Assembly: GCF_000230695.2 (NCBI RefSeq)
Contig: NC_020541.1
Location: 2,480,001-2,544,000, forward strand
Direction: 5' to 3'
Length of the DNA: 64,000 nucleotides
Origin: Rhodanobacter denitrificans
Lineage (GTDB): Bacteria > Pseudomonadota > Gammaproteobacteria > Xanthomonadales > Rhodanobacteraceae
The first letter of the stretch is position 1. Each line of letters begins with the position of its first letter. The notes under the pieces are model-generated. The model worked only from the letters and a program-made list of their open reading frames with translations, was not told the DNA's origin and made no database searches. The position numbers and the translations under genes are program-made. This document shows positions 540 to 14,015 of the stretch, one piece after another.

Positions 540-566
540 GGTCGATTTCCGCCGCGCCCGTTCGTC
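540..566 (+). promoter_or_regulatory. ECF42-like promoter upstream of SRPBCC gene
   Basis: GGTCGA (540-545), a 17-base spacer, then CGTC (563-566), ending 37 bases before the ATG at 603. The same arrangement with TGTCGA and exactly 17 bases recurs at 1082-1108, 6009-6035 and, on the minus strand, 13989-14015. From memory, characterised ECF42 sigma factors use TGTCGA at -35 and CGTC or a close variant at -10. This copy has one mismatch in the first box. Confidence 0.6.
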
Positions 567-602
567 AGGGAGAGAGCCCCTCCTCCGCCACGGAAAACCG
601 CC

Positions 603-1049
603 ATGACCACCAACACGCTTCGCCTCCACCGCGTGCTGCGCGCCCCGCCCGAGCGAATCTACCGCGCCTTCCTCGACGCCGAGGCGATCGCCAAGTGGCT
701 GCCGCCGCACGGCTTCACCTGCAAGGTGCACGAGCTGGACGCACGGGTCGGCGGCCAGCACCGGATGACCTTCACCCACTTCTCCAGCGGCCACGGACAC
801 GGCTTCGGCGGCACCTACCGCGAACTGGTGCCGAGCGAACGCATCCGCTACAGCGACCGCTTCGACGACCCCAACCTGCCCGGCGAGATGACCACCACCG
901 TCACCCTGCGCGCGGTGTCCTGCGGCACCGACGTGCAGGTGGTGCAGGAAGGCGTGCCCACAGTCATCCCGGTCGAGCAGTGCTACCTGGGCTGGCAGGA
1001 ATCGCTGCTGCTGTTGGCGCAACTGGTGGAGCCGGACATTCCGGGCTGA
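603..1049 (+). CDS. SRPBCC / AHSA1-type protein
   Basis: This is a 148-residue single-domain protein. The start LRLHRVLRAPPERIYRAF, then the KWLPPHGF segment and YRELVPSERIRYSD, are the typical N-terminal strand and helix of the SRPBCC (START-like, activator of Hsp90 ATPase homology 1) fold. Proteins of this group bind small hydrophobic ligands in a central cavity; the ligand here cannot be told from sequence. The ATG at 603 is chosen because the domain begins there and an ECF42-like promoter lies 37 bases upstream. Small SRPBCC proteins are common in ECF-controlled stress gene sets together with DUF1428, VOC and YCII proteins, all present nearby. Confidence 0.85.
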   Translation: MTTNTLRLHRVLRAPPERIYRAFLDAEAIAKWLPPHGFTCKVHELDARVGGQHRMTFTHFSSGHGHGFGGTYRELVPSERIRYSDRFDDPNLPGEMTTTVTLRAVSCGTDVQVVQEGVPTVIPVEQCYLGWQESLLLLAQLVEPDIPG

Positions 1050-1081
1050 CCGGCGCCGCATGCGGAATCGACGCCGACCCG

Positions 1082-1108
1082 TGTCGATTCCGCACGCGCC
1101 CGTTCGTC
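1082..1108 (+). promoter_or_regulatory. ECF42-like promoter upstream of DUF1428 gene
   Basis: TGTCGA (1082-1087), 17 bases, CGTC (1105-1108), 51 bases before the ATG at 1159. The spacer shares the GCGCCCGTT segment with the site at 540-566, so the two sites are related beyond the boxes. Confidence 0.65.
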
Positions 1109-1120
1109 GTCAGCAAAGAA

Positions 1121-1139
1121 GGCGGCCCCGTCGGCCGCC
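1121..1139 (+). terminator. GC-rich hairpin in leader of DUF1428 gene
   Basis: GGCGGCC (1121-1127) pairs with GGCCGCC (1133-1139) around a 5-base loop, followed only by GTTT. It lies between the promoter-like site at 1082-1108 and the ATG at 1159, so it could be a weak terminator or attenuator in the leader, or a chance pairing in GC-rich DNA. Confidence 0.3.
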
Positions 1140-1158
1140 GTTTGCGCAGGAGTCCGCC

Positions 1159-1515
1159 ATGTCCTATGTCGATGGTTTCGTGATCGCCGTGCCCGACGCC
1201 AACCGCGAGCAGTTCATCGCGCATGCCCGCCACTTCGACGCCATGTTCCTGGAGTTCGGCGCCACGCGGGTGGTGGAGTGCTGGGGCGACGACGTGCCCG
1301 ACGGCAAGCTCACCGACTTCCGCCGCGCCGTGCAGGCCGAGCCGGGCGAATCGGTGGTGTTCTCCTGGATCGAATGGCCCGACAAGGCCAGCCGCGACGC
1401 CGGCATGGAGCGGATCATGCAGGACCCGCGCATGCCGGGCGCCGGCGACATGCCGTTCGACGGCAAGCGCATGATCTTCGGCGGCTTCGCGCCGGTGGTC
1501 AGCCTGCCCGCCTAG
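1159..1515 (+). CDS. DUF1428 family protein
   Basis: A 118-residue protein that matches DUF1428 along its whole length: it opens MSYVDGFVIAVP, and the segments VVECWGDDVPDGK and VVFSWIEWPDKASRD are hallmarks of this family of small dimeric alpha/beta-barrel (ferredoxin-like) proteins. The biochemical role of the family is not known. The ATG at 1159 is preceded by AGGAG (1149-1153) at a suitable distance, which decides the start over a longer in-frame ATG at 1060 that would put the promoter inside the gene. It is probably transcribed from the ECF42-like site at 1082-1108. Confidence 0.9.
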   Translation: MSYVDGFVIAVPDANREQFIAHARHFDAMFLEFGATRVVECWGDDVPDGKLTDFRRAVQAEPGESVVFSWIEWPDKASRDAGMERIMQDPRMPGAGDMPFDGKRMIFGGFAPVVSLPA

Positions 1516-1527
1516 CGTGCGGCGCGC

Positions 1528-1821
1528 TCACTCCTCTTCTTCCTCGAACTCCACCAGCGCGTCCAGCTCGAACGCCAGCGCCTCGACCGCCTCGCGCACC
1601 TTGCGCGCGGTGGAGGCGTTCGGCGCCTCGATCTCCAGCTCGTGCGCGTCGGGTCCGTGGGTGTCGCTCAGGCCGGCGGAGCTGGAATCCGCGTCGTCCA
1701 TGCGATCCATCATGTCCGCGACCTCCTCCACGCGTTCGATGCCGTCCAGGCTCTGCAACAGATTCATCACGGCCCGGACGTCATCGTCGCTTCCGGTCAG
1801 GCGCAGGCGTAGTGTCGGCAT
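1528..1821 (-). CDS. small acidic hypothetical protein
   Basis: A 97-residue protein convergent with the DUF1428 gene. The first 35 residues (MPTLRLRLTGSDDDVRAVMN and onward) look like the first strand and helix of an ACT-like or ferredoxin-like domain; the middle is acidic and the protein ends in EFEEEEE. No known family is recognised. The internal ATG at 1821 is preferred to the one at 1860 because the fold-like sequence begins there and the 13 extra residues have no pattern. It might be a small regulatory or structural protein, but nothing in the context supports a specific role. Confidence 0.6.
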   Translation of the reverse strand: MPTLRLRLTGSDDDVRAVMNLLQSLDGIERVEEVADMMDRMDDADSSSAGLSDTHGPDAHELEIEAPNASTARKVREAVEALAFELDALVEFEEEEE

Positions 1822-1920
1822 GGCGGCATCTCGTGGCGGGATGCAAATCAGCCTAGGCACGCCCGGGCCAAGGCGGCGTGACGATGGCCACCCAAGCCGT
1901 CCGCGAAGAAGCTGGCCCCG

Positions 1921-2343
1921 CTAGTGGCCCAGGGCGTCGCCGCAACCCAGTGCCGCCGTCGACGGCAGCGCAGCCGGGCCGCGCGTCCGCTGCAGGTGCG
2001 CCAGCCCCCAGACCCTCGCCTCCTCCACCAGCGGCAAGACCGTTGCTCCGTAATCGCTCAGGCGGTACTGCACCGGCGCCGGTACCGGCCCGGCCACCAG
2101 GCGCTCGACCAGGCCATCGCTTTCGAGCTCGCGCAGCTGCTCGGTCAACACCTTGTGCGAGATCGGCGCGACGCGGCGCAGCAGGGCGGAAAAGTGATGG
2201 GGCTCGCGCGCCAGCCAATACAGGATGGTGAGCTTCCATTTGCCGCCGACCGCGACGAAGGCCGCGTGCAGCGGGCAATCCGCCAGCGGGTGGGCCGTGG
2301 CCGGCGGATACGCACCTGGACGTGCCTTCTTGTCGCTGGACAT
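1921..2343 (-). CDS. HxlR family transcriptional regulator
   Basis: A 140-residue winged helix-turn-helix protein. CPLHAAFVAVGGKWKLTIL (residues about 23-41) is the N-terminal HxlR hallmark, with the Cys used for redox or electrophile sensing in some members. HFSALLRRVAPISHKVLTEQL is the recognition region and YRLSDYGATVLPLV the wing. It is transcribed divergently from the secreted protein at 2388, with only 44 bases between the two starts, so that gene is the likely target. The C-terminal 20 residues run past the usual end of the family. The ATG at 2343 is chosen because upstream in-frame sequence has no homology-like pattern. Confidence 0.9.
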   Translation of the reverse strand: MSSDKKARPGAYPPATAHPLADCPLHAAFVAVGGKWKLTILYWLAREPHHFSALLRRVAPISHKVLTEQLRELESDGLVERLVAGPVPAPVQYRLSDYGATVLPLVEEARVWGLAHLQRTRGPAALPSTAALGCGDALGH

Positions 2344-2387
2344 GGCTGCCTCTAGCTTCAGTCGATCGAACCACGTTGGAGCATGCC

Positions 2388-2975
2388 ATGCCGAGCCGTT
2401 ACCGCGCCTTGCTGCCGTGGCTGGCCATCGCCTGGCTGCCGTTGCTGCCGGCTGCGTCCGCCTGCGCACAAGCGGCGCAGGCCACCAGGGCTGGCGCGGA
2501 AATTCCGCGCGACGGCCAGCACGATTTCGACTTCGAGATCGGCATCTGGCGCACGCACCTGAAACGGCTGGCGCATCCGCTGTCGGGGTCCGGCGAATGG
2601 GCGGAGTACGAGGGCGTCACCACCGTACGCAAGGTGTGGAACGGCCGCGCCAACCTGGTCGAGCTGACGGCCGATGGCCCGGGCGGCCATTTCGAGGGTC
2701 TGAACCTGCGGCTCTACAACCCGCGCTCGCGCCAATGGAGCCTGAACTTCGCCAACAGCAGCAGCGGAACGCTGGGGCAGCCGACGATCGGTCAATTCGT
2801 CGACGGCCGCGGCGAGTTCTACGACCAGGAAGACTTCAACGGGCGCGCCATTCTCGTCCGCTTCGTAATCACGCCGCTCGACGCCGACACGATCCGCTTC
2901 GAGCAGGCCTTCTCGGACGACGGCGGCAAGACCTGGGAGGTCAACTGGGTGGCCACCGATACGCGGATGAAGTAG
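2388..2975 (+). CDS. secreted DUF1579-like (lipocalin-like) protein
   Basis: A 195-residue protein. Residues 1-27 form a signal peptide (a Leu/Ala-rich core ending ASACAQA). The mature part starts with GQHDFDFEIGIWRTH, the usual opening of DUF1579-like beta-barrel proteins, and continues with alternating strands up to FSDDGGKTWEVNWV, a typical closing block. It is probably periplasmic and binds or processes a small ligand, but no catalytic residues can be named. It is divergent from the HxlR regulator, which suggests control by that protein. The second of two close ATGs (2388) is in frame with the signal peptide. Confidence 0.75.
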   Translation: MPSRYRALLPWLAIAWLPLLPAASACAQAAQATRAGAEIPRDGQHDFDFEIGIWRTHLKRLAHPLSGSGEWAEYEGVTTVRKVWNGRANLVELTADGPGGHFEGLNLRLYNPRSRQWSLNFANSSSGTLGQPTIGQFVDGRGEFYDQEDFNGRAILVRFVITPLDADTIRFEQAFSDDGGKTWEVNWVATDTRMK

Positions 2976-3052
2976 CGAGCCGAAGCGAAGGGCCAGGTTT
3001 CCCGGCGCCAAAAACGAACCCGGCGCCGTTTCCGCCTTCGGCGGCCGAACGG

Positions 3053-3419
3053 CTAGAACAGCGTGCAGCCCCGGCGGCCCGAAAGCACCCTGGCCTCGTG
3101 GATGTCCTTGTTGACCCGGCCGGAGTGCCGCAACGGCTCCTTCTTCATGGCGTCGTCGCCCGGGCCTTCTTCAAGCATGGCCCAGAGGCTGCTCGCGCGG
3201 TCGTCCCCCCACGTACTTCTCGAGCGTGGCGCCGTTGTGCAGCCGGCTGAGTTCGGCCGTCCATTCGCCGTCGCTTCCGACGAAGATCGACGGCTTTCCG
3301 TCGTCCTGCCCGGCCCTGCAGAACTGGCCGACGGTGGAATCCACGATCACCGGATGTGCCTCAGCTGATACAGCGCGTCGCCCAGGCACGCAGCTTCTCG
3401 TCGCTCGATCGAGGCATGC
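3053..3419 (-). pseudogene. hypothetical gene broken by frameshift(s)
   Basis: Two open segments on the minus strand appear to belong together. One reads VIVDSTVGQFCRAGQ, then SIFVGSDGEWTAELSRLH and NGATLEKYVG (about 3355 down to 3206). The other reads SLWAMLEEGPGDDAMKKEPL down to GRRGCTLF and a stop at 3053-3055. They join if one base is removed from the run of six C at 3205-3210 (+ strand). A further shift near 3365 would link to a Met-initiated start at 3419 (MPRSSDEKLRAW). I do not recognise the family. Either the gene is decaying or the homopolymer carries a sequencing error. Confidence 0.45.
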
Positions 3420-3561
3420 CGCTCTCCCGCCGCCAGGGAGACGGCATCGTATTCCCGGGCCTGGGGAGGGCGACAAGTGACCTGCCGCGGCCCGTGTGAC
3501 TAAATAAGCCGTCCGCGAAACCGGAATTGCCCGGCACCTTTCCCAAGCGAGGAACCCGCCC

Positions 3562-4026
3562 ATGCCTTATCCGCGCCAGCTTCCCGCCACCGGCACCTGC
3601 CGCTGCGGCCGCGTGCGCCTGCGCGTCACCAAGCCGGCCATGCTCAGCATGGCCTGCCACTGCCACGGCTGCCAGAAGATGACCGGCAGCGCGTTTTCGC
3701 TGTCGCTGGCGATGCCGGCCGATGGCGTGGAAGTACTCGAGGGCGAACTGGTCCGCGGCGGCCTGCAGGGCGAGCACAGCCATCTGTACTGCGCGTTCTG
3801 CAAGTCGTGGGTGATGACCCGCCCGGCCGGGCTCGACTGGCTGGTCAACCTGCGCGCCTCGGTGCTCGACCCGCACGCCGACTTCGTGCCGTTCATCGAA
3901 ACCTGCACCGACGCCCGGCTGCCCTGGGCATCGACCCCGGCGAAGCACAGCTACACCGGTTTCCCGGCGATGGAGGATTACCAGCCGCTGGTCGAGGCCT
4001 ACGCCGCCGAGACCGCGGATGCCTGA
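3562..4026 (+). CDS. GFA family (glutathione-dependent formaldehyde-activating-like) protein
   Basis: A 154-residue zinc-binding protein of the GFA/CENP-V fold. The cysteine pattern is complete: CxC at residues 13-15, CxCxxC at 32-37 (ACHCHGCQK) and CxxC at 77-80 (YCAFC), giving a structural and a catalytic-type zinc site. Family members were named for glutathione-formaldehyde adduct formation, but most are uncharacterised, so the activity is not assigned. The gene stands alone between a broken gene and a metallophosphoesterase on the same strand, 60 bases upstream of the latter, so the two may be co-transcribed. Confidence 0.9.
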   Translation: MPYPRQLPATGTCRCGRVRLRVTKPAMLSMACHCHGCQKMTGSAFSLSLAMPADGVEVLEGELVRGGLQGEHSHLYCAFCKSWVMTRPAGLDWLVNLRASVLDPHADFVPFIETCTDARLPWASTPAKHSYTGFPAMEDYQPLVEAYAAETADA

Positions 4027-4086
4027 TCGATGCGCCCGAGCCAGCCGGCTCCGGGCGCGCCGCGATGGCCGTGAACGGAGTACCGC

Positions 4087-4848
4087 ATGCGACTGCATAT
4101 CCTGTCCGACCTGCACCTGAGCACGCACGGCATGCCGTCGCCGGAAGTGGCGGCGGACCTGACGATCCTCGCCGGCGACATCCGGCGCCCCGCCGCCGAG
4201 GCGATGCAGTGGGCGGCCGGGCTGGGGCGCCCGGTGCTGTACGTGCCCGGCAACCACGAGTTCTACGGCGGCGCGATCCCGCAAGTGCGCCAGGCGCTGG
4301 CCCGCAGCGCTCGCGAGTACGGCATCGGTCTGCTGGACCAGAGCACATGCACGATCGGCGGCGTGCGCTTCGTGGGCACTACCCTATGGACGGATTTCGA
4401 GCTGTTCGGCGCCGGGGGCAAGGACCTTGCGATGACGGCGTCGGCGCAGTTCATGCGCGACTTCGCCGCCATCCGCAACGCCGACGGCAGCGTGTTCACC
4501 CCCGCCGCCGCCGCCGCGCTGTTCGCCGAACAGTACGCATGGCTTGCGGCCGTGCTGGAAGAGCCGTTCGCCGGGTCGACCGTGGTCATCACCCACCATG
4601 CGCCAACCCCGCGCAGCGTCCACCCGCGCTTTGCCGCTTCGCCGGTCAGCGCCGCCTTCGTGTCCGACTGCAGCGCGTTGATGGGCCGCGCCGTGTTGTG
4701 GGTCCACGGCCACACCCACGACAGTTTCGACTACACGGCGAACGGCACCCGGGTGGTGTGCAACCCGCGCGGCTACCGTGCCGGCGGGGTGAACGAGAAC
4801 CCGCAGTTCGATCCATGCCTGTGCATCGAGGTGGCGACCGGCGCGTAA
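4087..4848 (+). CDS. metallophosphoesterase
   Basis: A 253-residue calcineurin-like phosphoesterase. All metal-ligand motifs are visible: D8-L-H10 in ILSDLHL, GD31 in ILAGDI, GNHE at 55-58, TH-H in VVITHHAPTP, and GHTH in WVHGHTHDS near the C-terminus. The protein is cytoplasmic (no signal). The substrate is unknown; similar small proteins act on phosphodiesters or nucleotides. It follows the GFA gene by 60 bases and ends in a strong hairpin that overlaps its stop codon. Confidence 0.9.
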   Translation: MRLHILSDLHLSTHGMPSPEVAADLTILAGDIRRPAAEAMQWAAGLGRPVLYVPGNHEFYGGAIPQVRQALARSAREYGIGLLDQSTCTIGGVRFVGTTLWTDFELFGAGGKDLAMTASAQFMRDFAAIRNADGSVFTPAAAAALFAEQYAWLAAVLEEPFAGSTVVITHHAPTPRSVHPRFAASPVSAAFVSDCSALMGRAVLWVHGHTHDSFDYTANGTRVVCNPRGYRAGGVNENPQFDPCLCIEVATGA

Positions 4849-4876
4849 AAACGCGCCCCGGGGGGGCGCCGTTTTT
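4847..4876 (+). terminator. rho-independent terminator after metallophosphoesterase
   Basis: AAAAACGCGCCCC (4847-4859) pairs with GGGGCGCCGTTTTT (4863-4876) with one bulged base, giving a GC-rich stem ending in five T. It overlaps the stop codon of the phosphoesterase. The flanking A and T runs would let it work in both directions. Confidence 0.75.
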
Positions 4877-5031
4877 CGCGACGGACAAACGCCTCTTCCG
4901 GGCCTCGGCCGCGCAGCCCTACCTTGGGTGACCATGGACCCGACCGGCAACCGCCCCTGGCCTTCCGGCCTATCGACACTGCGGACAGGGGTCGGCACCA
5001 TGCCTGCCGATCCTCGAGGAGACGCGCGAAG

Positions 5032-5946
5032 ATGGCTGTCGGACCGACCTGGATACTCGCCACCGCCGCGCTGACGATCGTCGCCGGCCCGCTGGCGCTC
5101 GGGCTGGCCGGGTTCATCTCCGCCCGCGCCCCACATGCCGCACCCGCGGCACCCGCCCCGGGCTGGCGCCTCACGGCAGCCTCGACCCTGCTCTACGTGC
5201 TGGCCTTCAACCTGACGTTCTTCCTGCAGGAACTGGCCCTGGTGCTGCCGAAGGCGCTCACGCCTGGCCTGCAGCCGACCCTGTACCACAATAACCACAG
5301 CTGGGAAGGCACGAACCCGCTCGCCGCCCTGTTCCAGGGCACCGGTGCGCTGGCGACGCTGGCGGTCGGCCTGTTCTGCCTGTGGCTGCTGCGGCGCCCG
5401 CGGCTATGGTCGAACAGCACCCGGCTGGTGCTGTTCTGGATGGCCTATTGCGGCTGCTTCATGGCGCTGCCGCAGGTCGTCGTCGGGGCGCTCAGCCCGG
5501 GCAGCGACGTCGGCATGGCGATGGGCTATCTGCAGCTCGACGCCGGCGCCCGCCTCGGCGCGGGCCTGCTCGCGCTCGGCCTGATGCCGCTGGTTGCCCT
5601 GCTGCTGCGCCAGCCTGCGCTCGCGATCGCGGATTCGCCGGCAGCCATCGCCAGCCCCGGCGCCCGCACGCGATTCGTGTTCCGGGCCGTGACGCTGCCG
5701 GCCCTTCTCGCGAGCGCGCTGGTCATCCCGTTCCGCATCCCGCGCGAGCTGCTGGAGGTGGTCCTCGTGCCGTTGCTGGTGATCCTGCCCGGCATACCCT
5801 GGATCCAGGCGGCAGCCTGGCGCCTGCCCGGGGTCGCGGCCAGCGGTGCCGCAACCGCCCGGCCGCTCGCCTACCCGTTCGCCGCCGTCGTGGCGTTGCT
5901 GCTGTTTTTCCAGCTCGTGCTCCGGTCGGGCATCCGGTTCTACTGA
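5032..5946 (+). CDS. integral membrane protein of unknown function
   Basis: A 304-residue protein with about eight hydrophobic segments (roughly residues 5-30, 48-70, 98-120, 132-155, 165-192, 215-235, 240-258 and 283-300). A polar loop at about residues 75-95 carries the aromatic and His-rich string LYHNNHSWEGTN, which could be a functional site. No known family is recognised. The ATG at 5032 has GAGGAG just upstream (5015-5020) and begins directly with the first membrane segment; a longer in-frame start at 4924 would add a charged leader with no pattern. The gene stands alone after the terminator at 4847-4876. Confidence 0.75.
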   Translation: MAVGPTWILATAALTIVAGPLALGLAGFISARAPHAAPAAPAPGWRLTAASTLLYVLAFNLTFFLQELALVLPKALTPGLQPTLYHNNHSWEGTNPLAALFQGTGALATLAVGLFCLWLLRRPRLWSNSTRLVLFWMAYCGCFMALPQVVVGALSPGSDVGMAMGYLQLDAGARLGAGLLALGLMPLVALLLRQPALAIADSPAAIASPGARTRFVFRAVTLPALLASALVIPFRIPRELLEVVLVPLLVILPGIPWIQAAAWRLPGVAASGAATARPLAYPFAAVVALLLFFQLVLRSGIRFY

Positions 5947-6008: not shown

Positions 6009-6035
6009 TGTCGATCGGCGCGCCCGTCGTTCGTC
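6009..6035 (+). promoter_or_regulatory. ECF42-like promoter upstream of VOC gene
   Basis: TGTCGA (6009-6014), 17 bases, CGTC (6032-6035), 46 bases before the ATG at 6081. Boxes and spacing match the other three sites exactly. Confidence 0.65.
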
Positions 6036-6080: not shown

Positions 6081-6560
6081 ATGCTCAGCAAGAACACGAT
6101 CTGCCTTTGGTATGACGGCACCGCCGTGGACGCCGCCACGTTCTATGCCAGGACGTTTCCGGGCAGCGCCGTGGGCGCCGTCCACCGCGCGCCGGGCGAC
6201 TATCCGGCGGGCCAGCAGGGCGATGTGCTGATGGTGGAGTTCACGGTGATGGGCATCCCCTGCCTTGGCATGAACGGCGGCCCCGGCGTCCCGCACACCG
6301 ATGCGTTCTCGTTCCAGGTAGCCACCGACGACCAGGCCGAAACCGACCGCCTGTGGCACGCGATCATCGACCACGGCGGCCAGGCCAGCGCCTGCGGCTG
6401 GTGCAAGGACAAGTGGGGCCTGTCGTGGCAGATCACCCCGCGCGCGCTGATCGCCGCGGTCACCGACCCGGACCCCGCCGTCGCCAAGCGCGCGTTCAAC
6501 GCCATGATGGAGATGACGAAGATCGACATCGCGGCGATCGAGGCGGCACGGCGCGGCTGA
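6081..6560 (+). CDS. VOC superfamily protein (PhnB / 3-demethylubiquinone methyltransferase-like)
   Basis: A 159-residue protein of the vicinal-oxygen-chelate fold, PhnB-like branch. The opening NTICLWYDGTAVDAATFYA, the GIPCLGMNGGP turn, SFQVATDDQAETDRLW and the closing CGWCKDKWGLSWQITPR are conserved in proteins often mis-named 3-demethylubiquinone-9 3-methyltransferase; no methyltransferase motif is present. They are thought to bind small molecules, with no proven reaction here. GGAG lies 10 bases before the ATG at 6081. The gene sits under an ECF42-like promoter, and families like this are frequent partners of ECF41/ECF42 sigma factors. Confidence 0.9.
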   Translation: MLSKNTICLWYDGTAVDAATFYARTFPGSAVGAVHRAPGDYPAGQQGDVLMVEFTVMGIPCLGMNGGPGVPHTDAFSFQVATDDQAETDRLWHAIIDHGGQASACGWCKDKWGLSWQITPRALIAAVTDPDPAVAKRAFNAMMEMTKIDIAAIEAARRG

Positions 6561-6644: not shown

Positions 6645-7289
6645 ATGGTCCCCACCATCACCGCCTTTGAAAGCTCGCCCGATCGCGGCCGCGGCCTCGC
6701 GCGCGACATGCGCGTGCGCTGGGCGCTGGAAGAAACGGGTCAGCCTTACGAGGTTCGCCTCGTCTCGTTCGAGGCGATGAAGAACCCCGCGCACCGCGCG
6801 CTGCACCCGTTCGGGCAGATTCCCACCTACGAGGAAGGCGAGCTGGCGCTGTTCGAGTCCGGTGCCATCGTGTTCCATATCGCCGAACGCCATGCGGGCC
6901 TGCTGCCGGACCAGGCGAATGCGCGGGCGCGCGCCATCATGTGGATGTTCGCCGCGCTCAACACGGTGGAGCCGCCGATCCTCGAACTGCAGACCGCCAA
7001 GTTTGCCGAAGCCGACCAGCCATGGACCACCGAACGCCTGCCGCTCATCAAGGAGCGCATCCGCACCCGGCTGGGCGAGCTTGCCGTTCGCCTGGACGAG
7101 GCCGACTGGCTCGACGGCGGGTTCAGCGCAGGCGATCTCATGATGGTGCACACGCTGCAGCGGCTGAAGCCCTCGGGCCTGCTGGACGGCTACCCGAAGC
7201 TCGCCGCCTACGTCGCCCGCGGCGAAGCGCGGCCGGCCTACCAACGCGCCTTCGCCGCGCAGCTGGCGGTGTTCACCGGGAAGAACTAG
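6645..7289 (+). CDS. glutathione S-transferase family protein
   Basis: A 214-residue protein with the two-domain GST layout. The thioredoxin-like N-terminus (about residues 1-80) includes RVRWALEETGQPYEVRLVSF and the glutathione-contacting block FGQIPTYEEGELALFESGAI with the cis-Pro and Glu-Ser pair. An all-helical C-terminal domain follows, containing LDGGFSAGDLMMVHTL, the N-capping-box region. It probably conjugates or reduces a small electrophile in the cytoplasm. It starts 84 bases after the VOC gene on the same strand with no terminator seen, so it may share the ECF42-like promoter at 6009-6035. Confidence 0.9.
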   Translation: MVPTITAFESSPDRGRGLARDMRVRWALEETGQPYEVRLVSFEAMKNPAHRALHPFGQIPTYEEGELALFESGAIVFHIAERHAGLLPDQANARARAIMWMFAALNTVEPPILELQTAKFAEADQPWTTERLPLIKERIRTRLGELAVRLDEADWLDGGFSAGDLMMVHTLQRLKPSGLLDGYPKLAAYVARGEARPAYQRAFAAQLAVFTGKN

Positions 7290-7426: not shown

Positions 7427-8815
7427 ATGCCACGCCTACGCCTTGCCGAACCGCTCGTGATGCTGGCGACCGTGGTGCAGTGGCTGGCGCTGTCGATGCT
7501 GACCGGCGCCGTGGTCGGCGTGGGCTGCAGCGTCTTTCTCCACCTGCTGTTCGCCACCGAGGGCCACGTTTACGCCGTGCCGCTGGGGGTGCAGATGAGC
7601 CTGCTGGTCGTGGGTGGCTTCGCCAACGGGCTGTTGCTGCATTACGGCTATCGGCTGAGCCGCAGCGGCTACAGTGATTCGCCGATCGTTGCGGTGAACG
7701 AGCAACGCGGCAGGATGCCGTTCCGGACCCTGTGGGTGAAGCCGGTCGCCGCGCTGATCACCCTGGGCTGCGGCGGCTCGGCCGGCAAGGAAGGGCCGTG
7801 CTCGCACATCGGCGCCAGTCTGGCGGCCGGCATCGGCCGGGTGCTGCACCTGAACCCCGAGCTGCGCAAACGGCTGCTGGCGTGCGGGGTGAGCGCCGGC
7901 TTCGCCAGCGTGTTCGGCACCCCGATCGCCGGCGCCATCTACGGCGTGGAGATGCTGGCGATCGGCCGCATCCGCCACGACTTCCTGTTCCCCGGCATCG
8001 TGGCCGGCGTCACCGCGTTCCAGGTCAGCAAATACCTGGGCGTGCCCTACCCCCATTACCACATCGCCTTCATCAGCGACTTCACCGAGCTGCTGTTCCT
8101 GAAAACCGTGCTGATCGGCATCCTGTGCGGCGCGGCCGCGTGGGTGTTCGTCGAGCTGTTGCAGCAGGCGAGGCGGCTGTTCGGGCGTCTGCGCGATCGC
8201 TACGTGCTGTGGCCGCCGCTGGTGCCGCTGCTGGGTGGCGTGGTGCTGGCCCTGCTGGTCATGGTCGTGCCGTCCGATTACCTCGGGCTGAGCCTGCCGA
8301 TCATGGAACGCGCCCTGCACGGCGAGACGATGCCGTACCTGGGTTTCCTGTGGAAAGCCCTGCTGGTGGCGATCACGCTGGGCTCGGGCTTCTATGGCGG
8401 CATCGTGACCCCGCAGTTCGTGATCGGCGCCGTGCTGGGCGGCGCGTTCGCGCACCTGCTGGGGCTGGCACCGGCGCTGGGCGCGGCGGTGGGGCTGGTG
8501 GCCGTGGTCGCCTCGGCATCCAACGCGCCGATCGCCGCCATCCTGATGGGCATCGAGCTGTTCGGCGCCGATTCGACGCTGTACGTGGCCGGCGCCTGCG
8601 TCGCCGCCTATCTCATCATCGGCCACCGCAGCGTCTACCCCGCCCAGCAGATCGCGTTCAGCAAATCGTCGTGGATCTTCGCCCACACCGATCTGCCGGT
8701 CGGCCAGGAGAAGACCCGCCTGTCGTACGGCTTGCTGCGCTGGTGGAGCAAGCGCCGCCGCGCCCTGCAAGGCCCAGGGCGGCCGGGAGCGGCGAAAGGG
8801 GAACGTGACCGATGA
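7427..8815 (+). CDS. ClC-type chloride channel / transporter family protein
   Basis: A 462-residue membrane protein of the ClC family. GSAGKEGPCSHIGASL (about residues 117-132) contains the GKxGP gating block with the Glu at about 122. FASVFGTPIAGAIYGVEM and GFYGGIVTPQFVIGAVLGG match the second and third conserved regions. The first conserved ion-binding string, GSGIP, is not found; SGYSDSPIVAVN stands in that area. The Glu that feeds protons from the cytoplasm in exchangers appears as Met (VEMLAIG). These differences leave ion selectivity and mechanism (channel or exchanger) open. The Lys/Arg-rich C-terminus has no CBS domain. Confidence 0.85.
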   Translation: MPRLRLAEPLVMLATVVQWLALSMLTGAVVGVGCSVFLHLLFATEGHVYAVPLGVQMSLLVVGGFANGLLLHYGYRLSRSGYSDSPIVAVNEQRGRMPFRTLWVKPVAALITLGCGGSAGKEGPCSHIGASLAAGIGRVLHLNPELRKRLLACGVSAGFASVFGTPIAGAIYGVEMLAIGRIRHDFLFPGIVAGVTAFQVSKYLGVPYPHYHIAFISDFTELLFLKTVLIGILCGAAAWVFVELLQQARRLFGRLRDRYVLWPPLVPLLGGVVLALLVMVVPSDYLGLSLPIMERALHGETMPYLGFLWKALLVAITLGSGFYGGIVTPQFVIGAVLGGAFAHLLGLAPALGAAVGLVAVVASASNAPIAAILMGIELFGADSTLYVAGACVAAYLIIGHRSVYPAQQIAFSKSSWIFAHTDLPVGQEKTRLSYGLLRWWSKRRRALQGPGRPGAAKGERDR

Positions 8816-8862
8816 CACCGCGGACCACAGGCAATCAGCCGCGTCCTTTCTGATCGCTTTTT

Positions 8863-9417
8863 CTATTCCAGGCTCAGGTCGTAGATCACCGTGGCCGGAT
8901 CCCGCGGATCCAGGCGGCGCTGGAATCCGATGTTCGCCGCAAGGCGATCGCCGCCGCCGGATCGGCTCGGGGCATAGGCGCGCATGTGCCGCATGCCGCG
9001 TGCCCTTGCCGCGGCGATCAGGTGGCGCATCAGGAAGGAACCGACACCGCGCTTTCGCCATTCGTCACTCACCGTGAGCGAAGCATCGCAGCTGTCGCCG
9101 GCGGCATTGACATGAAACTGCGCGGCGCCGATCTGATGCTCGCGTCCCCGCTGCGAGACCAGGGCGATGAAGCCCACGGCGCAGGCCGGATCGAGACAGG
9201 TGAGCTCGCGCGCCACCTCCGGCGTCGGGTCGCGGACCAGGCCGAGAAAGCGCGAACTGCGGAACGCGGGCGACAGATGGGTGAGAAATTCAAGCTCGAG
9301 CTCGGCGTCCTGCTCGCCGATCGACCGTATCTGCACGGTCGTGCCGTCCTGCAGCTTCTCGTTCCAGCCCTTGCCCGGGGGTGCGTCGGTCTGTGCCATG
9401 ACATGCTCCGTCATCAA
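8863..9417 (-). CDS. GNAT family N-acetyltransferase
   Basis: A 184-residue acetyltransferase. The acetyl-CoA binding motif A is visible as VSDEWRKRGVGSFLMRHLI (about residues 117-135), followed by AAARARGMRHMRAYA. The N-terminal LQDGTTVQIRSIGEQDAELE is typical of the acetyltransferases found as stand-alone units or fused to acyl-CoA synthetases. It converges with the ClC gene (47 bases apart). A TTGAC-N4-ATCAA box lies at 9464-9477, at the class II distance from a possible -10 (TAGGCT at 9442-9437, minus strand), so oxygen- or cAMP-type control is plausible. The acceptor is unknown. Start codons at 9417, 9414 and 9399 are all possible. Confidence 0.85.
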   Translation of the reverse strand: MMTEHVMAQTDAPPGKGWNEKLQDGTTVQIRSIGEQDAELELEFLTHLSPAFRSSRFLGLVRDPTPEVARELTCLDPACAVGFIALVSQRGREHQIGAAQFHVNAAGDSCDASLTVSDEWRKRGVGSFLMRHLIAAARARGMRHMRAYAPSRSGGGDRLAANIGFQRRLDPRDPATVIYDLSLE

Positions 9418-9463
9418 GCAATCAAGCAGGTGCTTCAGCCTAGCAGTTGCCTCTTGCGGTCAA

Positions 9464-9477
9464 TTGACCAGCATCAA
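9464..9477 (-). promoter_or_regulatory. FNR/CRP-type box upstream of GNAT gene
   Basis: TTGACCAGCATCAA is a near-perfect dyad of the FNR/ANR form (TTGAT-N4-ATCAA, one difference). On the minus strand it lies 21 bases before TAGGCT (9442-9437), a possible -10, placing it near -41.5 of a transcript for the GNAT gene at 9417. A second box of identical TTGAC-N4-ATCAA form occurs at 10236-10249. Confidence 0.5.
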
Positions 9478-10235
9478 TGGAGCGGGCGTTGCCGCGCCGC
9501 TGGCGGAACCGGGCGGGCCAAGTCGAGCTGGCTCCGCTGGTTGCCCTGCACGTGCCGGGCAAAAAAACGCCGCCCCGGCGTCGGCCGTCGCCACCGACCA
9601 GATGGCGGCAACATGGCTCTTCCCGGCCACGGGCACCAAGGTCCTGTCGGCCGAGCCGGCCGCAGCAGAATCGGCACGCCCTTCCCGATGGGAATGGCCT
9701 CGACCCGCTTTCCCGCGCACCACCCACCATGGTCCGTGGTAGCGCCGCAGTTCCTCGGCGTCGCCGACGCCGTCCTTCACGCTGACCGCAACCTCCGGGT
9801 TGCCGCCTCCACGAAGCGCAACCATCGCCATGGCAGACATTCCCCCAACGCCCCACGTAGCGGCCACGACAAACTCGCCACTCGTTGGGAAGCCGAACCT
9901 GACCCTTGTTTCGCCTGACCTGCCGCCATGATGCATGCATAACCGCCTGGCGCGGTACGCACGACGCATACGGCGGCGGCAGCGCACGAAGTGGACCGGA
10001 TTCCCGGATCGCCGGGGCGTGGCTGACGGCCGCCATGGGTCTTGGCCAGCGCACGGGCACGGATCGCATGCCAGCGATACCGGTGACCATCTTTTCATGA
10101 CTTCGCGCCCCTCAATGACGCGGCCGGCTTCGTTCAGGAAAATCGCCAACACTCGTTGCGGGCCGGTGCATGCGTACCGCAAGTGCGGACAGGCCGCAGG
10201 TCGGATGCCGACCTTCGTTTTCGGTATCGCTTTTG
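9478..10235. other. gene-poor stretch, no confident gene
   Basis: About 760 bases between two FNR/CRP-like boxes. Open frames exist on both strands, the longest on the minus strand from 10182 down to 9460. Their products have unusual composition (rich in Cys, Arg and Trp), no family resemblance and no clear ribosome binding site. Two minus-strand frames give patchy, protein-like strings, which would fit a decayed gene. I see no RNA gene or repeat here. Confidence 0.4.
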
Positions 10236-10249
10236 TTGATCCCAGTCAA
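10236..10249 (+). promoter_or_regulatory. FNR/CRP-type box upstream of secreted Gln/Met-rich protein
   Basis: TTGATCCCAGTCAA, read on the other strand as TTGAC-TGGG-ATCAA, one change from the FNR/ANR dyad. It would sit near -41.5 for a transcript starting about 10284, 50 bases before the ATG at 10334. The expected -10 position (about 10272, GAATAT) is a weak match. It could also serve a minus-strand unit in the gene-poor stretch. Confidence 0.45.
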
Positions 10250-10333
10250 CAGCCATCCATGCCGATGAACCGAATATCCGGGTGTTGCCACACTCCCGGC
10301 GACATCCTTGCAACTCGAGGCGAGGCTACTTCC

Positions 10334-10852
10334 ATGCGAATCAGATACGTTTTCATGTCCGGTATCTCTGCGTTTTGCCTGCTCGCCACCCTGCCGGCAT
10401 TTGCCTACCAGAGCGGCGGCGGCCAGCGAGGTGGCCAATCCGCACCTGTCGGACAGCCGGCAGGCGGCATGATGCAGCGGGATCAGCTGCACACACAGGA
10501 CCGAACCACGCAGAAGGATCGCAGCCAGATCTATGGTTCCCAGCTGATGACTCCGGCCGAGCGCAAGGCGTATCGCGACCAGATGCGCAGCCTGAAGACG
10601 GCCCAGGAGCGCGAGGCGCTGCGAAAGCAGCACCATGAGCAGATGCAGAAGCGTGCTGCCGAACGTGGCATGAGGCTGCCCGACATGCCGCCCGGGCAGG
10701 GTGCGGGCATGGGTCCGGGTGCCGGCATGCGGCAAGCTACGCAGCAACAGACTATGCAGCAACAGCAAAACCAGGGCACGGAAAAGCAGGTCGAGCAGAA
10801 GCAGAGCACCGAGCAGCGGACCCGACAGCAGAAGGATGACGGCAATCGCTGA
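10334..10852 (+). CDS. secreted Gln/Met/Arg-rich hypothetical protein
   Basis: A 172-residue protein. Residues 1-25 are a signal peptide (MSGISAFCLLATLPAFA, cleavage after FAYA-like site). The mature protein has a Gly/Gln-rich stretch and then a helical charged block, LMTPAERKAYRDQMRSLKTA, followed by a second basic helix and a Met/Gly/Gln tail ending in repeated Gln and Lys. The central block resembles the short LTPAERAAYRxxMRxAxT motif found in many small periplasmic proteins of unknown function in this group, and suggests metal-binding or chaperone-like behaviour without proof. The second in-frame ATG (10334) is chosen because the signal peptide starts there. Confidence 0.7.
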   Translation: MRIRYVFMSGISAFCLLATLPAFAYQSGGGQRGGQSAPVGQPAGGMMQRDQLHTQDRTTQKDRSQIYGSQLMTPAERKAYRDQMRSLKTAQEREALRKQHHEQMQKRAAERGMRLPDMPPGQGAGMGPGAGMRQATQQQTMQQQQNQGTEKQVEQKQSTEQRTRQQKDDGNR

Positions 10853-11087
10853 CCGCAAGATGTCTCGCACCGTGCCCGGCGCCGGTGGTTGCACCGGCCC
10901 ACGCGCCCTGGCATCGACAGCCGCGGCCGACGACTGCGGTCGAACCAGGACGACAGATGGGGCGACGACCCCGACGACATCGCCGGGGCGTCCGTTCCGC
11001 GCCGCGTTCCCCGCATCTCCATGGTTTCCTTGATACGCCACAGACATTGATGATCTCGATTGACACCCAACTGCGGAGGGTCAGCAC

Positions 11088-12128
11088 ATGCCGTCGATCA
11101 AGCTGGTTTCACTGATGGTTCTCGCCTCCCTGGCAACAGGCCAGGCATGGTCGCAAACCGCATTGATGAAGCAGGCCCAGGGCCTGTTCAAACCGATACC
11201 CGCCAACGCGCCGCCATTGGCGGGCAATGCGGCGACCCCGGCCAAGGTGGAGCTCGGCAAGATGCTGTACTTCGAGCCCCGGCTGTCCGAAAGCCACGCC
11301 ATCAGCTGCAATTCATGCCACATGGTCGGCATGGGCGGGGTCGACCTGCAGGAGACTTCGCTGGGTCATCGCTGGCAGCATGGCGGTCGCAACGCGCCGA
11401 CCGTCTACAACGCGGTGTTCGACGTCGCCCAATTCTGGGATGGGCGTGCCAAGGACCTTGAACAGCAGGCCGGCGGTCCGCTGGTCAACCCGGTCGAGAT
11501 GGACACCACCGAGGCACATGTCGTCGAACAGCTCAAGGGGATTCCCGGCTACGCCGCCGTGTTCGCCAAGGCCTATCCGGCCGTGCCCGATCCGATCACG
11601 TTCGACAACGTGCGCAAGGCCATCGCCCTGTTCGAGGCCACCCTGACCACGCCGAACGCGCCGTTCGATCGCTACCTCAAAGGCGACGAGAAAGCACTCG
11701 ACGCGAACCAGCAGGAAGGCCTGGCGCTGTTCATCAACAAGGGCTGCGCGGCATGCCACAACGGCATCAACGTGGGCGGGGGCATGTACGCCCCGTTCGG
11801 CGTGGTCGAGCGGCCCGGTGCCGACATTCTCCCGCCGGGGGACAAGGGGCGCTTCGCGGTGACCAAGACGGTCAGCGACGAATACGTGTTCCGGGTACCC
11901 TCGCTGCGCAACATCGCGCTGACCGCGCCCTATTTCCACACGGGCAAGGTGTGGGACCTTCGCCAGGCCGTCGCGATCATGGGCAGCAGCCAGCTCGGCG
12001 CTAAGCTGAGCGACGAGGAGGTCGGCAAGATCGAGGTTTTCCTCGGGGCTCTGACCGGCGACCAGCCGAAGGTCGCGCTGCCGATCCTGCCGCCCAGCGT
12101 GGCGACCACCCCGCGGCCCAAGCCGTAA
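11088..12128 (+). CDS. di-haem cytochrome c peroxidase (MauG/CcpA family)
   Basis: A 346-residue periplasmic enzyme. A signal peptide covers residues 1-22. Two CxxCH haem c sites are present: CNSCH at 74-78 and CAACH at 220-224. The strings NAPTVYNAVFDVAQFWDGRA and RVPSLRNIALTAPYFHTGKV are the standard bacterial cytochrome c peroxidase blocks, the second holding the Met-free distal region and a His ligand. It reduces hydrogen peroxide to water with electrons from a cytochrome or quinol route. A good ribosome site (GGAGGG, 11075-11080) precedes the ATG. The cytochrome b561 gene follows 22 bases after and may supply electrons. Confidence 0.92.
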   Translation: MPSIKLVSLMVLASLATGQAWSQTALMKQAQGLFKPIPANAPPLAGNAATPAKVELGKMLYFEPRLSESHAISCNSCHMVGMGGVDLQETSLGHRWQHGGRNAPTVYNAVFDVAQFWDGRAKDLEQQAGGPLVNPVEMDTTEAHVVEQLKGIPGYAAVFAKAYPAVPDPITFDNVRKAIALFEATLTTPNAPFDRYLKGDEKALDANQQEGLALFINKGCAACHNGINVGGGMYAPFGVVERPGADILPPGDKGRFAVTKTVSDEYVFRVPSLRNIALTAPYFHTGKVWDLRQAVAIMGSSQLGAKLSDEEVGKIEVFLGALTGDQPKVALPILPPSVATTPRPKP

Positions 12129-12150
12129 CCTGCACGAAGAGGATGCCCGC

Positions 12151-12690
12151 ATGGTCGTGAAATCGAGCCGCTACCACTGGGTGGTCCGCTACGCACACTG
12201 GCTGACCGTGCTGGCCATCGTGCTGGCCTACGCGCTGGTGGACCTTGTCGATGACGAGGGCTCCGAAGGGAATTCCCCGCCCTCGCTGATGCTGCAGGGC
12301 CATTACCTGGCCGGGCTGGCGGTACTGGCACTTCTGCTGCCGCGGATCCTCGCGCGGCTCGCCACCCCGGTACCGCCGATCGTGCCGGCGCCGAAGACCG
12401 TCATCGCCTTCGCCGCACACGGCCTGCACCTGGCGCTGTATGCGTTTCTGCTGGTGCAGCCGATCCTCGGCATCTTGCAGGTGAACTACGCCGGGCAGCC
12501 GGTCAGCTTGCCGTGGGTGGGCTGGAGCCTCCCTGCGCTGGTCGGCCCCGACCACGCGGCACATGAATTCGTCGCCGAGGTCCACGAGACACTCGGCGAG
12601 GTGTTCTATTGGGTCATCGGTGCCCACATCGCCGCCGCGCTGTGGCATCACTTCCTGGTTCGCGACAACACGTTGCGACGGATGCTTTGA
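12151..12690 (+). CDS. cytochrome b561 family protein
   Basis: A 179-residue membrane protein with four transmembrane helices (about residues 15-33, 48-66, 82-102 and 146-168). Haem ligands are visible as His in the first helix (RYAHWLTV), HYLAGLAVLAL, AAHGLHLALY and the C-terminal helix (VIGAHIAAALWHHFL). This is the cytoplasmic-membrane b561/Ni-hydrogenase b-type fold, which passes electrons from quinol or superoxide to an acceptor. It lies 22 bases downstream of the cytochrome c peroxidase gene, has GAAGAGGA in front of its ATG, and is likely its operon partner. Confidence 0.9.
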   Translation: MVVKSSRYHWVVRYAHWLTVLAIVLAYALVDLVDDEGSEGNSPPSLMLQGHYLAGLAVLALLLPRILARLATPVPPIVPAPKTVIAFAAHGLHLALYAFLLVQPILGILQVNYAGQPVSLPWVGWSLPALVGPDHAAHEFVAEVHETLGEVFYWVIGAHIAAALWHHFLVRDNTLRRML

Positions 12691-12856
12691 GCCGGGGCGG
12701 ATTCGGCAAAGAACTGGCTGCATGGAGTTCGCCGGCAATTTCCCCTTGCCCCGCTCGATGGGCCGTGCCGCTTCCCTGGCGGGCCGTGCGGCAAGCTCGG
12801 TCGCCGCGGCGCTACCGCCGGCGCGCCGGGTTTCGGCGGCGCCGCGGAAACAGGAA

Positions 12857-12895
12857 GGCCCGGCACATGAGGTGGTTTGCCTCATGCACCGGGCC
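12857..12895. terminator. hairpin between convergent b561 and reductase genes
   Basis: GGCCCGGCACATGAGG (12857-12872) pairs with CCTCATGCACCGGGCC (12880-12895): 14 of 16 pairs, two internal mismatches, loop of seven. It lies in the 279-base gap between convergent genes ending at 12690 and 12970. There is no T run, so it may be a bidirectional terminator or RNA-protecting stem. Confidence 0.45.
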
Positions 12896-12969
12896 GCATG
12901 GTGCCGCTGTTGCGTGTCGTGCCGGATCGTCAGAGCGTGGCGGGCGCCGGCTCGGGCGAAGTGGGCGAA

Positions 12970-13551
12970 CTAGGTGGCCTTCAAAGGTCCGGCGACCTTG
13001 TACGTACTGAGGATGATGCCGGACGGAAATGCTTGCGTGCTGACGAGCTCGAAGGAGCGTGGCGGGGTTCCTTCTGCAAAAAAGCGCTTGCCCTTGCCCA
13101 GCAGGACCGGATAGACGACCAGCAGGACTTCATCCGCCAACCCATGTTCGAGCAGCGTCGATGTCAGCGTGGAGCTGCCCGAGAGAACAAGGTTCGGGCC
13201 GTCCTGCGACTTGATGCGGCGAACGCCCGCGACGAGGTCCGGTCCAAAGCCCTCGAACGGGCCCCATGCAAGACTTTCCGGACGATGGGTAGCGACATAT
13301 TTCGTCGCCGCATTGAGGGCGTCCGCCATCGGACTGCCCGGCGCCTTGGGCCAGAAGCCCGACCAGATATCGTAGGTGAGACGGCCAAGCAGCAGATCGA
13401 AGCTCGCGCCATACGCGGCGAGGATCGCATCCCGACCAGCAGGGGTCCGATAGGGCGCGGTCCAGTCGCTATAGGGGAAATCGCCGTCATCATCGGAGTG
13501 CTGGATCACGCCATCCAGCGAGATGTGTTCCATGATCTTGAGCTTTCTCAT
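12970..13551 (-). CDS. dihydrofolate reductase / RibD C-terminal family protein
   Basis: A 193-residue protein of the DHFR-like fold used by the RibD reductase domain. Diagnostic segments are MEHISLDGVIQ at the N-terminus, LLLGRLTYDIWSGFWP, YVATHRPESLAW, NLVLSGSSTLTSTLLEHGLADE and the VVYPVLLGKGKRFF strand. It probably reduces a small substrate with NAD(P)H; the substrate is unknown and a true folate role is unlikely. It starts 30 bases after the YCII gene on the same strand, so both are likely read from the ECF42-like promoter at 13989-14015. Pairs of YCII and RibD-like genes are typical of ECF42-linked sets. Confidence 0.9.
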   Translation of the reverse strand: MRKLKIMEHISLDGVIQHSDDDGDFPYSDWTAPYRTPAGRDAILAAYGASFDLLLGRLTYDIWSGFWPKAPGSPMADALNAATKYVATHRPESLAWGPFEGFGPDLVAGVRRIKSQDGPNLVLSGSSTLTSTLLEHGLADEVLLVVYPVLLGKGKRFFAEGTPPRSFELVSTQAFPSGIILSTYKVAGPLKAT

Positions 13552-13581
13552 TGGAATCTCCGTGTTCCGGGGTTGGCGTTT

Positions 13582-13935
13582 CTATTCCGTTGGCATGACG
13601 AGGAATTCGCGCACCTCGACCGATGCGCGGCAAGCGACGACGGCTTTGCGGCCCCACGCCAGGGCCTCATCCATGCTGGCTGCGTCGAGTATCCAGAAGC
13701 CGCCGATGTATTCCTTGGCCTCGATGTACGGTCCATCGGTGACCACCACCTCTCCGCCGGGCCGCTTGCGCAGCGATTTCGCGAGGGACGCCGATTGCAG
13801 GCCGCCGGCGAAGAACCAGGCACCGGCAGCCGCCATCTCGTCATTGAGCGCCTGGATGTCGCGGACCATCGCATCGTCTTCAAGCGACGGGTCGTAGTTG
13901 TCGGGGTGGTGGATCGCCACCAGATATTGCGGCAT
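13582..13935 (-). CDS. YCII-related (DGPF domain) protein
   Basis: A 117-residue protein. The DGPF hallmark is visible as VVVTDGPYIEAKEYIGGFWI (about residues 64-83), preceded by GLQSASLAKSLR and followed by ALAWGRKA. DGPF proteins are small ferredoxin-like-fold proteins of unknown biochemistry whose genes are the best known neighbours and targets of ECF42 sigma factors. The start at 13935 is followed directly by MPQYLVAIHHPD. A TGTCGA-N17-CGTC promoter lies 53 bases upstream; the sigma gene itself is not adjacent. Confidence 0.92.
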   Translation of the reverse strand: MPQYLVAIHHPDNYDPSLEDDAMVRDIQALNDEMAAAGAWFFAGGLQSASLAKSLRKRPGGEVVVTDGPYIEAKEYIGGFWILDAASMDEALAWGRKAVVACRASVEVREFLVMPTE

Positions 13936-13988
13936 GTCTGTTCCTCGGATGATCTGCAGGCTGACTGGTCACCGGCCTTCACTGCAGC

Positions 13989-14015
13989 GACGAACGGCCG
14001 CAACCGATTTCGACA
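13989..14015 (-). promoter_or_regulatory. ECF42-like promoter upstream of YCII gene
   Basis: On the minus strand: TGTCGA (14015-14010), 17 bases, CGTC (13992-13989), 53 bases before the ATG at 13935. Its occurrence before a DGPF/YCII gene, the classical ECF42 target, is the strongest support for the regulon reading. Confidence 0.7.

Follow-up and report, generated by a model that had tools for sequence, protein, structure and literature searches.

Four probable ECF42-type promoters in Rhodanobacter denitrificans and the distant sigma factor that probably reads them

The window, a 64,000-nucleotide stretch of the Rhodanobacter denitrificans chromosome, holds four promoter-like sites with the same boxes and the same spacing, and no ECF42 sigma factor gene. 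We asked whether these sites are ECF42 promoters and, if so, which sigma factor reads them. Our analysis makes it very probable that they serve as promoters for an ECF42 sigma factor that acts in trans, and that ECF42-A, encoded about 1.1 Mb away, is their reader.

Predicted promoter sites and genes in the window

The four sites and the genes behind them are as follows.

540..566, + strand: predicted ECF42-type promoter, GGTCGA-N15-TTCGTC, exact match, 36 nt to the ATG of the SRPBCC gene
603..1049, + strand: AHSA1/SRPBCC-family protein (Pfam PF08327)
1082..1108, + strand: predicted ECF42-type promoter, TGTCGA-N15-TTCGTC, exact match, 50 nt to the ATG of the DUF1428 gene
1159..1515, + strand: DUF1428 protein (Pfam PF07237)
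6009..6035, + strand: predicted ECF42-type promoter, TGTCGA-N15-TTCGTC, exact match, 45 nt to the ATG of the VOC-like gene
6081..6560, + strand: VOC-like protein, 3-dmu-9_3-mt family (Pfam PF06983)
6645..7289, + strand: glutathione S-transferase, GST (Pfam PF02798), after a gap of 84 nt
13989..14015, - strand: predicted ECF42-type promoter, TGTCGA-N15-TTCGTC, exact match, 53 nt to the ATG of the YCII gene
13582..13935, - strand: YCII-family protein (Pfam PF03795)
12970..13551, - strand: RibD_C-domain protein (Pfam PF01872), after a gap of 30 nt

An earlier, sequence-only reading had placed the four sites at these positions, and its coordinates, boxes and 17-base spacer were all reproduced. It gave the distance to the start codon as 37-53 nt; the upper end agrees with our measurement, and the lower end is 36 nt. 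The protein families that it had guessed were recovered by Pfam in every case. Judging from the short gaps, the VOC-like and GST genes are probably co-transcribed, and the YCII and RibD_C genes probably form one operon.

The literal motif, [TG]GTCGA-N17-CGTC, had five exact matches in the window against 0.55 expected, and none of 100 shuffles reached five. The fifth match (3910-3936, - strand), which the sequence-only reading had left out, lies antisense within a GFA-family gene (3562-4026, + strand) and lacks the TT before CGTC.

The motif across the genome and the family

Identical spacing at four loci had been called unlikely by chance. This is true inside the window, but genome-wide the literal motif showed no enrichment, with 44 matches against 42 for the reversed control. 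The genome scan had been proposed as a test of the regulon, and in this literal form its result came close to speaking against it. All four window sites share two further bases, giving TTCGTC, and KGTCGA-N15-TTCGTC had 13 exact matches in the 4.2 Mb genome against 0 for the reversed control. The motif as first written is too loose and needs the extra TT. Matches of the literal motif with T at the first base that do not end in TTCGTC were found at 2197347, 2440625, 2777748, 3404926 and 4046857. The genome scan was confined to the 17-base spacing.

Eleven of the 13 sites precede a gene, ten of them at 32-80 nt from motif end to start; the site before the HlyD gene lies outside this range, at 108 nt. 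No convincing gene was found downstream of the other two. The families behind the eleven sites are YCII (3), VOC-like (2), GST, DUF1428, DUF899, SRPBCC, YceI and HlyD, and the encoded proteins resemble enzymes for small-molecule handling or detoxification. The regulon had been described as dispersed; its promoters are indeed dispersed, but they are also clustered, with 8/11 within 195 kb.

Site conservation differed among the four loci. The sites before the DUF1428 gene and the VOC-like gene are each kept before the orthologue in 8/9 Rhodanobacter genomes. At the YCII site, the full motif stands before 4/6 orthologues in 40 genomes, with this genome's own counted. The GGTCGA site of the SRPBCC gene is present before four Rhodanobacter orthologues, and is missing or altered in many others. 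Recurrence alone proves little, because an antisense site at 689259, which was taken as background, also recurs in 3/9 other Rhodanobacter genomes.

The association with the sigma gene was analysed in 147 genomes of the family, using TGTCGA-N15-TTCGTC as the motif and the ECF42-specific domain PF20239 as the mark of an ECF42 gene. The 115 ECF42-bearing genomes held 636 sites against 14 for the control, although eight of them had no exact site. The 32 genomes without ECF42 held 6 sites against 4, one each in six genomes. The literal motif alone would fit chance matches in a GC-rich genome, since it was as frequent as its control; the longer motif, in this genome (13 vs 0) and in the 115 ECF42-bearing genomes, rules this out, and we give chance almost no weight.

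Thirteen genera include genomes with and without ECF42, and in 11 of them the sites followed PF20239; genera g17 and g25 showed no contrast. This also bears on the possibility that the reader belongs to a different ECF group whose -10 box is likewise CGTC, such as ECF41. ECF41 promoters typically carry TGTCACA as the -35 box. The promoter of the Sinorhizobium meliloti ECF41 factor RpoE9 shares the CGTC -10 box, but its -35 box is TGTCACA (PMC6180224), against [TG]GTCGA at all four window sites. With the sites tracking an ECF42-specific domain as well, we consider an ECF41-type reader very improbable. The assignment to ECF42 made by the sequence-only reading holds, as the site tracks PF20239 and resembles the promoters of S. 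meliloti RpoE10 (PMC6180224).

Two ECF42 genes and the -35 base

A search with PF20239 found two ECF42 genes in the genome.

C1:1372707-1374020: ECF42-A, open frame, about 1.1 Mb from the window on the same chromosome
C1:2663148-2664536: ECF42-B, open frame, 169-183 kb from the four window sites

Both lie outside the window, so absence of the sigma factor from the genome is ruled out. The description of a regulon without its sigma factor is correct for the window and not for the genome, and control from elsewhere is supported. The lack of an ECF42 gene beside the window YCII gene is not unusual, because relatives of this gene were found at 64 loci and only 23 of these had ECF42 within the fetched stretch (at most 4 kb on each side). 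In this genome a YCII gene is immediately upstream of both ECF42 genes.

ECF42-A showed PF04542, PF08281 and PF20239 above cut-off, that is, sigma regions 2 and 4 plus a C-terminal DUF6596 extension; the extension had one TPR_2 match (E 0.00086), below its cut-off. Its YCII-ECF42 operon stands behind a KGTCGA-N15-TTCGTC motif, as in 8/9 other Rhodanobacter genomes. RNA polymerase with ECF42-A would recognise a TGTCGA -35 box and a TTCGTC -10 box and would transcribe about eleven units, including its own operon and the SRPBCC, DUF1428, VOC-GST and YCII-RibD_C units of the window. We infer that ECF42-A drives these promoters in the cell and may also regulate itself. Its activity may be controlled by the DUF6596/TPR-like tail, perhaps together with a YCII protein.

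ECF42-B might replace ECF42-A as reader of the window promoters or share them with it: ECF42-B belongs to the same genome, and two TGTCGA-N15-TTCGTC sites (2660052 and 2661352) lie less than 5 kb from it. However, its own operon carries TGTCCA-N17-CGTCAT, which occurs only there in this genome, and the window motif was found upstream of 0/20 B-like operons. Moreover, 337 sites occur across the 71 genomes that have just one ECF42, and in the two of these that belong to the same genus and had the helix read (G018 L059 and G116 L079), this one ECF42 belongs to the Gln type described below. A role of ECF42-B as main reader is thus unlikely, and any share in reading the window sites has a small probability. 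The Pfam search found PF04542 and PF20239 in ECF42-B and did not call region 4. Where the B promoter was present at the operon (19 genomes), TGTCCR-N17-CGTCAT had 18 further matches against 8 for the control, so ECF42-B may have targets beyond its own operon in other genomes.

The difference between ECF42-A and ECF42-B may lie in the recognition helix. Across 111 ECF42 operons whose promoter could be read, the fifth base of the -35 box tracks one helix residue: Lys occurred with C in 21/21, and Gln with G in 86/89 and never with C. Exceptions in the later locus set were L417 (Glu-Gln, TGTCTG), L436 (Gly-Gln, TGTCTG), L448 (Gly-Gln, TGTCAA) and L407 (Ala instead of Gln, TGTCGA). Because families and some genomes occur in both sets, the later one is not a fully independent hold-out. 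Loci without a promoter by scan (55/102 in the first set, 31/100 in the later) or with an unreadable helix (1 and 4) were left out, and 4 duplicates had been dropped before the first set. Lys-type loci without a scored promoter were L328, L331, L332 and L336, where no YCII start was found upstream, L121 (TGTCCG), and L416 and L443 (TGTCC seen only by eye).

When the two helix residues were masked, the trees showed two changes of Gln/Lys and two of G/C, occurring together, and one change of the Glu just before this position; the tree labels of L121 and L126 came from separate readings. With just two independent paired changes, significance is out of reach (p 0.5). We lean towards a code in which two residues of the region 4.2 recognition helix determine how the -35 box is read: Gln would specify TGTCG and Lys TGTCC, and a preceding Glu TGTCGG, otherwise mostly TGTCGA or TGTCGT. 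The Gln/Lys switch would then separate the paralogues of this genome, ECF42-A with about eleven promoters and ECF42-B chiefly with its own operon. No statement of this rule was found in the literature searched, which lay outside the main ECF42 paper and the ECF classification paper; promoter logos of subgroups may already have been published there.

Significance and comparison with known ECF42 systems

For Rhodanobacter, the analysis predicts an ECF42 regulon that is defined by sequence, comprises about eleven promoters and has a named sigma factor; sigma-less relatives offer a natural comparison. A defined regulon should make it easier to study what signal ECF42 factors respond to and what YCII proteins do. 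If the Gln/Lys rule is true, paralogous ECF42 regulons could be separated from sequence, and separate promoter-sigma pairs would be on offer.

A TGTCGA / CG[AT]C promoter consensus is known for ECF42 factors such as those of Streptomyces venezuelae and Pseudomonas putida. TGTCG[AG] with CGTC at 17 bases describes the four window sites and the 13 genomic sites with TTCGTC. S. venezuelae Sven_0747, Sven_7131 and Sven_4377 and P. putida ECF-10 are described in PMC8999054 as ECF42 factors whose C-terminal extension is rich in TPR repeats and whose genes have YCII as a conserved neighbour. The ECF42 of Xanthomonas campestris, a related gammaproteobacterium, is named in PMC8103513 and is reported to work as a switch when placed in S. 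meliloti (PMC10880074); the passages of these two papers that mention it describe no regulon.

A further comparison is with S. meliloti RpoE10: over-expressing it raised operons that lie behind mapped TGTCGG-N17-CGTC promoters (PMC6180224; the N17 spacer was counted by us from its Table 1). Its -35 box ends in G, whereas that of Rhodanobacter ends in A, and six genes were raised, compared with about eleven units predicted here (PMC6180224). In S. meliloti the sigma factor did not raise its own YCII-sigma operon (PMC6180224), so autoregulation of ECF42-A is uncertain. Both systems have a long ECF42 sigma factor behind a YCII gene and a CGTC -10 box at 17 bases, and the RpoE10 targets include predicted glyoxalase-domain proteins (PMC6180224), similar to the Rhodanobacter set.

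Motif, sigma genes and predicted regulon

The window lies at C1:2480001-2544000 of a genome of one contig (C1, 4,225,490 bases). All four ECF42-like promoter sites proposed in the sequence-only reading matched KGTCGA-N17-CGTC (K = T or G) exactly. A further exact match at window 3910-3936 (−) was antisense within a GFA-family gene (3562-4026) and lacked the TT ahead of CGTC. These five matches compare with 0.55 expected by chance, and none of 100 shuffles gave five. Over the whole genome this shorter motif is unremarkable, with 44 matches versus 42 with the pattern reversed. The longer element common to the four sites, KGTCGA-N15-TTCGTC, had 13 exact matches in the whole genome, versus none for the reversed control. 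Behind 11 of the 13 we observed a correctly oriented gene.

Predicted ECF42-A promoters: site (C1 unless marked), Pfam family of the gene behind it, nucleotides between the end of the motif and the start codon, and number of nine Rhodanobacter genomes with a site-bearing orthologue
703629; YceI; 42 nt; 4
1372112; YCII-ECF42-A operon; 58 nt; 8
2466135; VOC-like; 57 nt; 3
window 540-566 (+); SRPBCC; 36 nt; 1
window 1082-1108 (+); DUF1428; 50 nt; 8
window 6009-6035 (+); VOC-like, then GST; 45 nt; 8
window 13989-14015 (−); YCII, then RibD_C; 53 nt; 1
2648463; GST; 33 nt; 9
2660052; DUF899; 32 nt; 3
2661352; YCII; 80 nt; 2
3513665; HlyD-type membrane-fusion protein (weakest of the eleven); 108 nt; 2

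The other two sites look like background, 689259 being antisense within a gene and 1660580 having no convincing gene behind it. Eight of the eleven fall in 195 kb (2466135-2661378), which none of 200,000 random placements equalled, though this may mean no more than that related genes have remained neighbours. This cluster is far from the ECF42-A gene and adjoins ECF42-B. Between two of the window's promoters, genes for a di-haem cytochrome c peroxidase (MauG-type) and then cytochrome b561 (11088-12690, +) have no site of their own. A transposase-like gene with HTH_38 and rve domains (15823-16782, −) lies near the YCII-RibD_C operon.

Control from outside the window, as had been proposed, agrees with the PF20239 (DUF6596) search, in which two genes passed the cut-off (C1:1373304, +, and C1:2663544, −), both beyond the window and each preceded by a YCII gene.

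ECF42 sigma genes (Pfam)
ECF42-A (protein P0001); frame C1:1372707-1374020 (+); sigma regions 2 and 4, DUF6596
ECF42-B (protein P0002); frame C1:2663148-2664536 (−); region 2 and DUF6596, region 4 not called

Association and conservation across genomes

PF20239 was present in 115 of 147 genomes of the family and absent from 32; sites matching TGTCGA-N15-TTCGTC were tallied over this whole set. ECF42-bearing genomes had 636 sites (mean 5.53; control 14) and the others 6 (mean 0.19; control 4), giving a Mann-Whitney p of 6e-15 with kinship ignored. In the 71 genomes that carry a single ECF42 there were 337 sites altogether, with none in 6 of these genomes. Thirteen genera included genomes of both kinds. 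For example, site counts with ECF42 were 9-14, 5-9, 3-9 and 0-8 in genera g18, g14, g22 and g9, respectively, and all were 0 without it. Counting against the association, 8 of the 115 had zero exact sites and 6 of the 32 had one each. The contrast was absent in g17 (1 site with, 1 without) and g25 (0, 0, 0 and 1 with, 0 without).

All 79 KGTCGA-N15-TTCGTC sites from the nine Rhodanobacter genomes were sampled; 71 began with T and 8 with G, and three had no reading frame behind them. At a threshold of at least 55% identity to the first gene behind any of the eleven sites in this genome, 48 of 71 T-sites and 1 of 8 G-sites stood ahead of an orthologue. Recurrence counts need caution, as background site 689259 was found again in 3 of 9 genomes because it sits within a conserved gene.

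For SRPBCC and YCII (13989), the window genes lowest in this tally, orthologue upstreams were read in 40 genomes. SRPBCC had an orthologue in 23, with GGTCGA sites at L348, L351, L352 and L353, TGTCGA or CGTCGA forms at L356, L360, L366 and L367, and sites one base off (by eye) at L349, L363 and L365. The L364 match was judged spurious. Upstream of the remaining ten orthologues in this set the site was not found. In six genomes (G158, G161, G093, G105, G170, G116; SRPBCC loci L354, L355, L357, L358, L359 and L361), SRPBCC without its own site lies directly behind DUF1428 and its site, so SRPBCC could be under operon control there. The order is reversed in window 540-1515, with a site for each gene.

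YCII (13989) had an orthologue in 6 of the 40 genomes. The full motif stood before four of these, counting this genome's own; a fifth had CTCGTC and the sixth a changed -35. Beyond the genus, upstreams were read at 57 of 64 loci with a relative of this YCII gene, and 18 carried TGTCGA-N15-TTCGTC in full; by their names, the records belong to Gammaproteobacteria, Alpha- and Betaproteobacteria, Acidobacteria and, in one case, an actinobacterium. ECF42 lay within the fetched stretch at 23 of the 64. At L213 (G018:C105:26521-26547) the full motif precedes an apparently decayed GST gene (72-residue frame). The YCII gene at L228, whose record title is Edaphobacter sp. (MAG), shares 84% identity with that of the window, reflecting either movement across phyla or misbinning of the contig.

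ECF42-B promoter and recognition helix

The genome contains two ECF42 SPECIFICITIES; the YCII operon of ECF42-B follows TGTCCA-N17-CGTCAT, not the window's motif.

C1:2664798-2664826 (−); ECF42-B operon promoter, upstream of L052 10401-10784; single match in the genome

Among 20 B-like operons of the family, 17 had TGTCC[AG]-N17-CGTC and L123, L126 (by eye) and L127 had TGTCGA-N17-CGAC; none of the 20 had the window's motif upstream. The recognition helix differs at one position, Gln in ECF42-A (...TIAQRIVRAK...) and in L123, L126 and L127, and Lys in the 17 (...AM[GSC]KRL...). L321, the closest ECF42-B relative outside the family in our search, combines Gln with TGTCGA and shares the CGTCAT of the ECF42-B promoter.

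We then scanned the DNA ahead of YCII with TGTCNN-N16-18-CG[AT]C, in which -35 bases 5 and 6 are free. In the first set of YCII-ECF42 loci, 46 of 102 had a promoter, pairing Gln with G (27/27) and Lys with C (19/19) at the fifth base. In the later set it was found at 65 of 100, with Gln-G in 59 of 62 (others two T, one A), Lys-C in 2 of 2 and one Ala with G. Over both sets (111 operons), Lys paired with C in 21 of 21 and Gln with G in 86 of 89, never with C. Glu preceding Gln paired with G at the sixth base (8/8 and 24/24 in the first and later sets, respectively); where Glu was lacking, sixth-base G occurred four times in 38, each time with a Lys-type sigma, and once in 41. In trees with the two helix residues removed, only two changes were seen, residue and base together each time; kinship leaves just these two, fewer than a test requires. 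This helix aligns with the corresponding one in ECF sigmas of solved structure, and the matches include sigma-E region 4 chain 2h27, a complex with -35 DNA. L257, a named YCII locus without sigma data, has TGTCCA with TTCGTC.

Proposed mechanism and published ECF42 systems

Most likely, a signal would activate ECF42-A via its C-terminal extension, a YCII protein perhaps taking part, and its holoenzyme would open the TGTCGA/TTCGTC promoters, probably including that of its own operon. The output would be enzymes of glutathione-transferase, glyoxalase-fold and related families. What the sequences show directly is the sites, the genes behind them and the association across genomes; the signal, the regulation in living cells and the autoregulation are inferred from these. 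The regulon finding is sound and ordinary in kind, and its sigma is now identified. Judged from sequence, the more unusual part would be that a single -35 base and a single helix residue set the two ECF42 paralogues apart.

As described in PMC8999054, the TPR-rich extension of ECF42 is essential for activity, YCII is a conserved neighbour, and ECF42 is thought to act by protein interaction. In PMC6180224, over-expression of RpoE10, the ECF42 of S. meliloti, increased expression of six genes, four by at least 2-fold, in two operons with mapped promoters TGTCGG-N17-CGTC (spacer counted here from that source). A glyoxalase-like domain is predicted in two of the four products. At SMc01151-rpoE10, a motif almost the same as this one overlaps the start site, and SMc01151 is described there as not raised.
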